Below the pieces are notes generated by a model. The model was not told where the DNA came from. It saw only the letters and a list, made by a program, of their open reading frames with translations, and ran no database searches. Both the position numbers and the translations under genes were made by a program. This document shows, piece after piece, positions 51,656 to 55,652 of a stretch of 64,000 bases of DNA. The stretch's first letter is position 1; each line of letters begins with the position of its first letter. The stretch is from Hyphomicrobium album. GTDB taxonomy: Bacteria; Pseudomonadota; Alphaproteobacteria; Rhizobiales; Hyphomicrobiaceae. The stretch lies in the NCBI RefSeq assembly GCF_009708035.1, contig NZ_WMBQ01000001.1:248001-312000 (forward strand), given 5' to 3'.

Positions 51656-52332
51656 AGCTCGTCGTTCTCGATTGCGACGGCACGCTCGTCGACAGCCAGA
51701 ACGGCATCTGCGAGGCGATGACGCACGCCTTCACCGGTTTCGGTCTCGTTCCGCCAACGCGCGCGGCGACCCTCGCCATCGTCGGCCTATCGTTGCCGGA
51801 AGCCTTCATGGCACTGGCGCCGGAGCAGGACGATGCCCTGCGCGCCAAGATGGTTGCCCGCTACAAGTCGGCGTTCCTCGAGATCCGCCGCGAGCCGGAC
51901 CTGCACGAGCCTCTGTTCGACGGTATCGCCGCCGCGGTCGAGACGTTCGGTGGCCGCGACGACGTGGTGCTCGGCATTGCCACCGGTAAATCGAAGAAGG
52001 GCATCGACCGGCTGTTCGCGCGTGAGGGCTGGGGCCAGCGCTTTGTCACCGTGCAGACCTCCGACGACCACCCGTCGAAGCCGCATCCGGCCATGTTGCG
52101 CGCGGCGATGGCGGAGGCGGGCGTCGGCCCTGAGCGAACCGTCATGGTGGGCGACACCACATTCGACATGGAAATGGCCCGGGCAGCCGGCGTCGGAGCG
52201 CTGGGCGTGGGCTGGGGCTATCATTCCATCGACGAGTTGCAGCGGGCGGGCGCGCATGCCGTGGTCGGCAATTGCCATGACCTTCCCGCCGACATCGATG
52301 CCTTCTTTTCCACGCGGGAGCGGGCTGCGTGA
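51652..52332 (+). CDS. HAD-superfamily hydrolase (phosphoglycolate-phosphatase-like)
   Basis: 226 aa. Motif I VVLDCDGTLVDSQNG (nucleophile D8, acid D10), motif II LGIATGKSKKG (Thr/Ser), Lys in SDDHPSKPHPAML, and motif IV VMVGDTTFDMEMARAAG. The helical cap is inserted after motif I. Cytosolic, substrate unknown. Overlaps rluC (ATGA) and the ATP12 gene (GTGA), so the three form a tightly coupled operon. Confidence 0.92.
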   Translation: MKLVVLDCDGTLVDSQNGICEAMTHAFTGFGLVPPTRAATLAIVGLSLPEAFMALAPEQDDALRAKMVARYKSAFLEIRREPDLHEPLFDGIAAAVETFGGRDDVVLGIATGKSKKGIDRLFAREGWGQRFVTVQTSDDHPSKPHPAMLRAAMAEAGVGPERTVMVGDTTFDMEMARAAGVGALGVGWGYHSIDELQRAGAHAVVGNCHDLPADIDAFFSTRERAA

Positions 52333-53099
52333 GCGAACCGGGCGACAAGGCCCCGGCTGCCAGCAAGGTCCCCGGCAAGGAGGCGCTGAGACCGCCACTG
52401 CCGAAGCGCTTCTACAAGAACGTCACCGTGGGCGAGGCCGAGAACGGCTTCTCCATCCTGCTCGACGGCCGGTCGGTCCGCACGCCCAAGAAGCTGCCGC
52501 TGATCGTTCCCACCCGGGCGCTCGCCGATGCGATCGCCGAGGAATGGGCGGCGCAGACCGAGCGCATCGACCCCGTCACGATGCCGCTGAGCAAGCTTGC
52601 CATCACCGCCATCGACGGGGTTACCGGCAGCATGGACGAGGTCGCTGCCGACATCGTCCGCTTCGCTGGCAGCGATCTCCTCTGCTACCGCGCCGAGGCG
52701 CCGGCAGCGCTGGCCGAAATGCAAGCGCTCGTCTGGGATCCCATCCTGCGCTGGGCGGAAGCTGAGACCGGCGCGCGCTTCCTGCTGGCCGAGGGCGTGA
52801 TGCCGGTTACCCAGAATCGCGAGGCACTGTCACGGGTCAGCGACCTCGTCGCGCCTTACGGCGCCTTTGCGCTCACGTGCCTGCACGTGATGACGACACT
52901 CACCGGATCGGCGTTCTTAGCTCTTGCCGTAGCCAAGGGCCGGCTGACCGCCGAGGAGGCCTGGAACGCCGCACATCTGGATGAGGACTGGCAGATCGCC
53001 CGCTGGGGTGTGGACGTCGAGGCCGCTGAACGACGTGCACACCGGCACGCCCAAATGCTCGCCGCGAGCCGTTTTCTACAGCTGCTATCCGCCGCTTGA
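52329..53099 (+). CDS. ATP12-family F1-ATPase assembly chaperone
   Basis: 256 aa, starts at GTG inside the HAD stop. RFYKNVTVGEAENGFSILLDGRSVRTPKKLPLIVPTRALADAIAEEWAAQ is the ATP12 N-terminal signature, then DLLCYRAEAPAALAEMQALVWDPILRWAE and LTGSAFLALAVAKGRLTAEEAWNAAHLDEDWQ. In mitochondria and alphaproteobacteria ATP12 helps assemble the F1 alpha subunit. The rluC-HAD-ATP12 arrangement is a recurrent alphaproteobacterial neighbourhood. Confidence 0.93.
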   Translation: MSEPGDKAPAASKVPGKEALRPPLPKRFYKNVTVGEAENGFSILLDGRSVRTPKKLPLIVPTRALADAIAEEWAAQTERIDPVTMPLSKLAITAIDGVTGSMDEVAADIVRFAGSDLLCYRAEAPAALAEMQALVWDPILRWAEAETGARFLLAEGVMPVTQNREALSRVSDLVAPYGAFALTCLHVMTTLTGSAFLALAVAKGRLTAEEAWNAAHLDEDWQIARWGVDVEAAERRAHRHAQMLAASRFLQLLSAA

Positions 53100-53195
53100 G
53101 GCCCTATTTTGCGGGCTGTTACGCCGGGAACAGCGGCCGGGACGATCAGATACTAGTGTCACCGCCACCCGAGGTATCAGCCCGAGGAGCGGACC

Positions 53196-53273
53196 ATGTT
53201 GAGCCTTTTCGATTTTGCCATTCTCGTGATCGTCGTCGCGGCGATGCCGCTCGTCATCAAGGCCGGCCGATGA
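53196..53273 (+). CDS. 25-residue single-TM microprotein
   Basis: Starts at ATG 53196 with GAGGAG seven bases upstream and stops at TGA 53271-53273. It encodes MLSLFDFAILVIVV, then AAMPLVIKAGR: one hydrophobic helix. The stop overlaps the ATG of the next gene (ATGA), and the FD...V..MPL.I pattern matches the first helix of the next two genes. The strong ribosome site, coupling and homology argue that it is translated. Function unknown. Confidence 0.6.
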   Translation: MLSLFDFAILVIVVAAMPLVIKAGR

Positions 53274-53614
53274 TCGCATCCACATTCGACCTGTGGGTCG
53301 CGGTCGGCGTCGTAATCATGATGCCGCTGATCATTGCCGTGAACTTCAACCGCCAGGCCGGCGTGATGGGCTACGTGTGGCGCGAGGCGCCGGGTCTCGC
53401 CCGCGTTGGGCTCGTGTTTCTCGCGCTGACTTGGATTTCCGCCATCCAATCGCTGTTGACCCACTATGGCGTCCTGCTGGCGCAAGTCGATGACGTCATC
53501 TCACTCGTGCTGGGCATTCCGATGTTCGCGCTGTCGATGATCATTCTGATCTGGGGAGCCGTCCTGCTTGTGCGGTTCCTGAATAGCGGCCGAACGCCTG
53601 ATTCCGCCACTTGA
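53270..53614 (+). CDS. Small membrane protein, paralogue A
   Basis: 114 aa, three predicted TM helices (about 7-24, 44-63, 80-105). Key phrases: FDLWVAVGVVIMMPLIIAVN, VWREAPGLARVGLVFL, VDDVISLVLGIPMFALSMIIL. The ATG lies in the stop of the 25-residue gene. The MPL-I--N, WR and VLGIP motifs recur in the same order in the next gene, so the two are tandem paralogues. No named family recognised; no signal peptide beyond TM1. Confidence 0.8.
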   Translation: MIASTFDLWVAVGVVIMMPLIIAVNFNRQAGVMGYVWREAPGLARVGLVFLALTWISAIQSLLTHYGVLLAQVDDVISLVLGIPMFALSMIILIWGAVLLVRFLNSGRTPDSAT

Positions 53615-53645
53615 TTTCTACTCGCCACGCTATTTGGAGGCGCCG

Positions 53646-53993
53646 ATGCAACCCCTCGATACCTATCACCTCGTGCTCAATATTTTCGTCGCGGTGGTGA
53701 TGCCGCTGCTCATTCTCGCCAACGTCATGGGCTGGGGCGCCCGCACCCCGGTGAGCGACTTTTTGTGGCGCGACCACACCAACTTCATGCGTATCTCGAT
53801 GCTCATCATCGGCCTCTTGGCCCTCTGGTCGATGGTTCAGCTCGCTGCTCACTTCGGTCTGATTTCCACCGGCGCAGCCGACGTGGCGATGCCGGTCCTG
53901 GGCATCCCCTTCCTCATCCTGGCCGTCGTCGAGATCTGGCTCGCCTTCCGGGCACTGCAGGATTACCTGCGGATACGCCGCAGCCAGGCTTAG
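53646..53993 (+). CDS. Small membrane protein, paralogue B
   Basis: 115 aa from ATG 53646, with GGAGG five bases upstream (a TTG twelve bases earlier is unlikely). Three TM helices with the same landmarks as its upstream neighbour: NIFVAVVMPLLILANVMGW, FLWRDHTNFMRISMLIIGLL, VAMPVLGIPFLILAVVEIW. Ends in a basic RIRRSQA tail. 31 bp after paralogue A, so probably one operon. Function unknown. Confidence 0.8.
   Translation: MQPLDTYHLVLNIFVAVVMPLLILANVMGWGARTPVSDFLWRDHTNFMRISMLIIGLLALWSMVQLAAHFGLISTGAADVAMPVLGIPFLILAVVEIWLAFRALQDYLRIRRSQA

Positions 53994-54119: not shown

Positions 54120-55652
<1,533 letters not shown>

Follow-up and report, generated by a model that had tools for sequence, protein, structure and literature searches.

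The window analysed here, a stretch of 64,000 nucleotides of Hyphomicrobium album taken at its full length, carries on its forward strand a gene for an ATP12-type ATP synthase assembly chaperone, a very short gene of 25 codons that we shall call micro, two genes, A and B, coding for proteins of 114 and 115 residues, and a gene for the beta subunit of an acyl-CoA (propionyl-CoA type) carboxylase, in that order. The upstream neighbour (52329..53099), named from its protein sequence, and the downstream one (54120..55652, starting with ATG at 54120), also named from sequence, provide the anchors for synteny: the chaperone gene is present in 8/8 genomes of the genus set (the genome of the window, G000, together with G033 to G039), and the carboxylase gene follows in each genus genome read. 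Micro (53196..53273) codes for MLSLFDFAILVIVVAAMPLVIKAGR*, predicted to be a membrane protein with a single helix, and is preceded, 6 nt before its start, by the Shine-Dalgarno sequence GAGGAG (53184..53189); its stop overlaps the start of A (53270..53614) in the tetranucleotide ATGA, at 53270-53273. This dedicated ribosome site and this overlap, already pointed out in an earlier reading of the sequence alone, are indeed there. B (53646..53993), a paralogue of A, is provided with its own GGAG ribosome site. Both larger proteins are predicted to have three membrane helices. Upstream of micro lies an imperfect palindrome, TGTTACGCCGGGAACA (53117..53132; consensus TGTTCC-N4-GGAACA), a candidate operator or promoter element.

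That so short a frame is a genuine gene is the point on which we are most confident. Frame, start and ribosome site are kept in four of the eight genus genomes, where the products at the same locus position are, besides that of G000, MLSLFDLAILIIVIAAMPLVIRAGR in G033, MLSMFDLAILVVVIAAVPFLIRAGR in G036 and MLSLFDLIILAIVIAAVPFLLWAGRRP in G038. A profile of micro searched against 103 genomes of the bacterial family retrieved 4 matches, with E values of 5e-16 to 3e-15, the best value among the other 99 being 0.014. Predicted pairing with the anti-Shine-Dalgarno sequence reaches -8.3 kcal/mol in G000 and lies, for the other three genomes, between -6.4 and -7.1. In pN/pS, micro (0.20-0.42) always stands below A (0.61-0.70) and mostly below B (0.36-0.57); its synonymous sites approach saturation, with pS at 0.52-0.58 vs pN at 0.11-0.22, and Fisher tests made pair by pair give p values of 0.0004-0.013. 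Its variable columns are distributed over codon positions 1, 2 and 3 as 13, 3 and 16, and, because none of 20,000 column shuffles preserved the protein as well, we may take it that the frame is under selection for its amino acids. Selection and ribosome site together leave little doubt that micro is translated, and the proposal that the 25-residue frame is a real coding gene is borne out by its conservation in four genomes under purifying selection. The sequence-only reading would have been refuted by a loss of the short frame where A and B remain, and this check went in its favour: three genomes keep the frame beside both genes, and the fourth keeps it beside B. Short frame, single hydrophobic helix, selection and a place beside larger membrane genes are the sequence attributes of an operon-encoded small transmembrane subunit, and micro displays them all.

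Against 398 genomes of the order, the micro profile found chance-level matches only, outside its own genome, and a scan of other genera for hydrophobic short frames directly 5′ of the paralogues gave no similar case. With Pfam and NCBIfam at E <= 10, the sole matches were FeoB_associated (0.27) and YldA (0.13), for one member each; there was no sequence match to KdpF, CydX or other named models of small membrane proteins, and none in the PDB at E <= 10. A literature search on small proteins of Hyphomicrobium and on partial duplication returned no papers.

A and B belong to a family that has no database name, and that is predicted to consist of three-helix membrane proteins. Compared by BLASTP they are 28% identical over 97 residues (E 6e-10), with MPLxIxxN, WR and VLGIP standing in register in the two. 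AlphaFold2 models them with confidence (pLDDT 90.7 for A, 92.3 for B) with long helices 1 and 3, and with a short helix that stands between helix 1 and helix 2 (in sequence order, residues 5-26, 32-39, 41-65 and 71-106 in A); VLGIP, which had been placed before helix 3, is located inside this long third helix in both models. The family profile (about 115 residues) is matched in 26 of the 103 genomes of the bacterial family at E <= 1e-4, G000, G033 and G036 being the only ones to hold two copies, and, among 385 genomes of the class, in none but its own genome. A search of genome contigs with the alignment of B brought three Hyphomicrobium records (isolates SB8, BWSM_147 and NDB2Meth4), a search with A brought no relatives, and B had no match in plasmids. 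The best values against Pfam and NCBIfam, 0.0051 and 0.00084, were each obtained with one member of 23 and are not convincing; the best match among PDB sequences had an E value of 0.34, and Foldseek returned nothing significant for the models (E >= 0.39). SemiSWEET and the mitochondrial pyruvate carrier, which we take to be three-helix transporters, had been considered as candidates on the basis of a 3-1-3 helix layout, and were set aside as no PQ-loop, MtN3 or MPC entry was among the Pfam or Foldseek PDB matches shown. Where helix 2 ends, most members of the family, and 4/4 B proteins, have the histidine of an HFG motif (residue 69 of B); this histidine is lost in A of G036 and in the A proteins found without B, and is a possible ligand, or a possible quinone or haem site. 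The neighbours of the family differ between genera. In another genus, G078 and G075 have a single-copy relative shortly 5′ of an acyl-CoA carboxylase beta gene, with a different gene upstream.

Within the genus the locus exists in several states. The order micro, A, B with the ATGA overlap is found in G000, G033 and G036; G038 has micro and B, with A cleanly absent and about 51 nt between the two remaining genes; G035 and G039 have an A-type gene only, and G034 and G037 have none of the three. A has orthologues in G033 and G036, and diverged ones in G035 and G039. In 8/8 genomes micro and B either both occur or are both missing, a figure that amounts to about two loss events. In the tree of the chaperone and the carboxylase, G034 and G037 fall outside, G036 goes with G038 and G035 with G039; in that of the family, a single clade holds the B proteins (99/100), and A is joined (95/89) by the lone genes of G035 and G039, which have diverged very fast: their branch measures 1.71, vs 0.26-0.54 for the other A proteins. 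These lone genes have an apparent TTG start and their own ribosome site. The simplest account of these patterns would have the trio ancestral in the clade of six genomes, A disappearing afterwards from G038, and micro and B from the lineage of G035 and G039. The duplication that gave A and B is older than the divergence of these Hyphomicrobium genomes. A tandem origin had been advocated for the pair: true paralogues they are, but the tree does not make them closest relatives, and duplication in place is plausible rather than demonstrated, since support is weak both at the root and for the way in which A is related to B.

The palindrome upstream of micro is kept in the four genomes that have the gene, perfect in G033, G036 and G038 and with one mismatch in the window. 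TGTTCC-N4-GGAACA occurs in 13 perfect copies elsewhere in G000, and G033 has 9, vs 0 for the reversed control, with copies at corresponding genes in the two genomes and several before genes for exported proteins; G035 and G039, which are also devoid of micro and B, have 0. Inspected by eye, the four loci display GGAAC and then, at exactly 20 nt, ACTAGT, TCTAGA, CGTAAG or CCTAGG. We may be dealing with an operator or a promoter element that several genes share, possibly that of an unnamed regulon. A general stress promoter of the EcfG type (GGAAC-N16/17-CGTT) was rejected, because CGTT does not appear by eye at the required spacing in any of the four loci.

It had been proposed that micro repeats the pattern of helix 1, and of this helix only, and here the likeness proves exact in register. 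Over FD...V..MPL.I, 10 of 19 residues are identical with those of A, and an ungapped profile of helix 1 places 4/4 micro proteins in one register, residue i of micro corresponding to residue i+1 of A, with FD and P coinciding. Against shuffled micro cores from the four genomes the helix-1 profile of the whole family gives p values of 0.001-0.011, that made from A 0.001-0.003, that made from B 0.002-0.054, and one made from proteins of other genera 0.004-0.065; nothing comparable is seen with profiles of helices 2 and 3. With hhalign, micro and helix 1 are aligned with a probability of 86% (E 5e-6). The micro proteins score 12.9-19.5 bits, and the best unrelated hydrophobic segment of the window 15.3; two of the four (16.7 and 19.5) outscore all other hydrophobic segments in the window while the other two do not. 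Because about 20 residues only are involved, homology of micro with helix 1, nearest to that of A, is to be considered as likely, not as proven.

Several readings compete to explain why such a peptide has been maintained. The description of micro as a truncated third copy was well inspired in that it is related to helix 1; the decay that it implies does not fit a gene which, among the three, is conserved best and has survived the loss of A. Being far shorter than A and B, micro might of course be taken for the non-functional remnant of a decaying copy, and we regard this as very nearly untenable when pN/pS is so low with synonymous sites close to saturation, when no shuffle of columns was as conserved, and when start codon and ribosome site are kept in four diverged genomes; indeed, G038 lost A cleanly yet kept, beside B, a micro that is constrained. 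That same genome bears on the idea, improbable in our view, of a leader peptide whose sole job would be to couple or regulate the translation of A. The overlap in three genomes speaks for it, as does the weak pairing of A with the anti-Shine-Dalgarno sequence in G000 and G033 (-4.5 and -2.6 kcal/mol), when the lone A genes, which have no micro, have sites of their own (-12.6 and -7.6). However, A has a fair site in G036 (-7.7), selection is exerted on amino acids and not on the frame alone, and the micro of G038, where there is no A, is still 64-76% identical in amino acids, with pN/pS at 0.27-0.42. Coupling cannot therefore be its only role; it is likely to be a second effect, as A is without a strong site in G000 and G033 while lone A genes possess one.

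The remaining alternatives accept that the peptide matters as a protein. Convergence, whereby a selected transmembrane peptide would merely happen to carry FD...MPL and would act with an unrelated partner, draws on the composition common to hydrophobic helices, and on the unrelated segment of the window with a score lying within the range of the micro proteins; it is at odds with an offset identical in 4/4 genomes and against profiles from A, from B and from outside the genus, with the lack of a comparable match to helices 2 and 3, and with a gene that adjoins A and B, and we hold it for rather improbable, somewhat more so than the leader peptide. A dominant-negative microprotein, that would fill the helix-1 site of the A or B subunits and block or limit their assembly, has slightly more in its favour than either, without ceasing to be unlikely: the register-exact likeness to helix 1 and the sharing of an operon with the likely targets are what it would predict, but constant co-production with these targets, a good ribosome site and the position of first gene suit a subunit better. 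We therefore lean, by a modest margin over even chances, towards a one-helix partner of B or A that would pack like helix 1, because micro goes with B in 8/8 genomes, persists without A and resembles that helix.

We can tentatively picture the trio as coding for a small inner-membrane system. B would be its three-helix core subunit, of ancestral type because the HFG histidine is present in all four B proteins and lost in A of G036 and in the lone A proteins; A would be a diverged three-helix paralogue; and micro a single-helix protein either derived from helix 1 of the family or descended with it. Since micro has basic residues at its C-terminus, and A and B have them behind their helix 1, a common topology is expected, and micro would insert as helix 1 does, with its N-terminus outside and its basic C-terminus inside. 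It might then pack in the manner of helix 1 against B, and against A where present, and stabilize or tune the complex, its translation being also coupled to that of A via the overlap. A hetero-oligomeric complex, as suggested by the sequence-only reading, would be plausible here; of that reading the observation is confirmed, and the interpretation is supported in part. As micro is a real gene, better conserved than its neighbours, its product probably belongs, as a tiny subunit or a regulator, to an undescribed membrane complex, present in some Hyphomicrobium. A bolder version, which we put forward as a conjecture with the odds against it, is that this complex uses a free-standing copy, 25 residues long, of the helix 1 of its own subunit as an obligate extra subunit, that arose in the operon and outlived one of its two full-length relatives.

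The interest of the locus extends beyond this particular complex. To our knowledge, most of the bacterial one-helix regulators that have been described have no traceable origin, and micro, a microprotein under selection, can still be recognized as a single helix of the proteins that A and B encode. The genome without A and the lineage without micro and B are natural experiments, and the idea that small membrane proteins arise out of fragments of larger ones becomes testable at this locus, which exposes, in A and B, an uncharacterized family of membrane proteins.

It remains to situate these genes among known systems. With three membrane helices and about 115 residues each, A and B recall as a pair the two membrane anchor subunits of succinate dehydrogenase, SdhC and SdhD, which are also the best Foldseek PDB matches of B, at non-significant values (E about 1, TM about 0.4); unlike them, A and B show no sequence match to the pair and have no Sdh genes among the neighbours read, and this predicted resemblance is a weak lead only. 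The microproteins of plants and animals, which are microproteins in the strict sense, mostly carry protein-interaction domains, with a dominant-negative action: micro is likewise short and resembles one structural element of a larger relative, but it is a single membrane helix in a bacterial operon. KdpF, with its 29 residues, is the product of the first gene of kdpFABC, and we know of no homology between it and any helix of the subunits with which it associates; like micro, it is a tiny single-helix membrane protein placed first in an operon before larger membrane subunits, but no sequence relation is detectable, and no Kdp genes were seen at this locus. AcrZ, which as far as we know is not in an operon with its target, has no sequence relation with micro either. 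Both proteins integrate into larger complexes, and KdpF facilitates formation of the potassium transport complex (PMC11539335); AcrZ, a small protein, binds a larger membrane protein in its transmembrane part (PMC7267776). Cytochrome bd includes CydX, which belongs, with CydY and CydZ, to short one-helix proteins that are encoded in operons and co-vary with their partner subunit (PMC4325964); these proteins differ from micro in sequence and in partners, micro being the one that resembles helix 1 of its neighbours. The comparison that we favour, by analogy, is thus with KdpF, CydX or AcrZ, to which micro would be akin in manner and not in descent.
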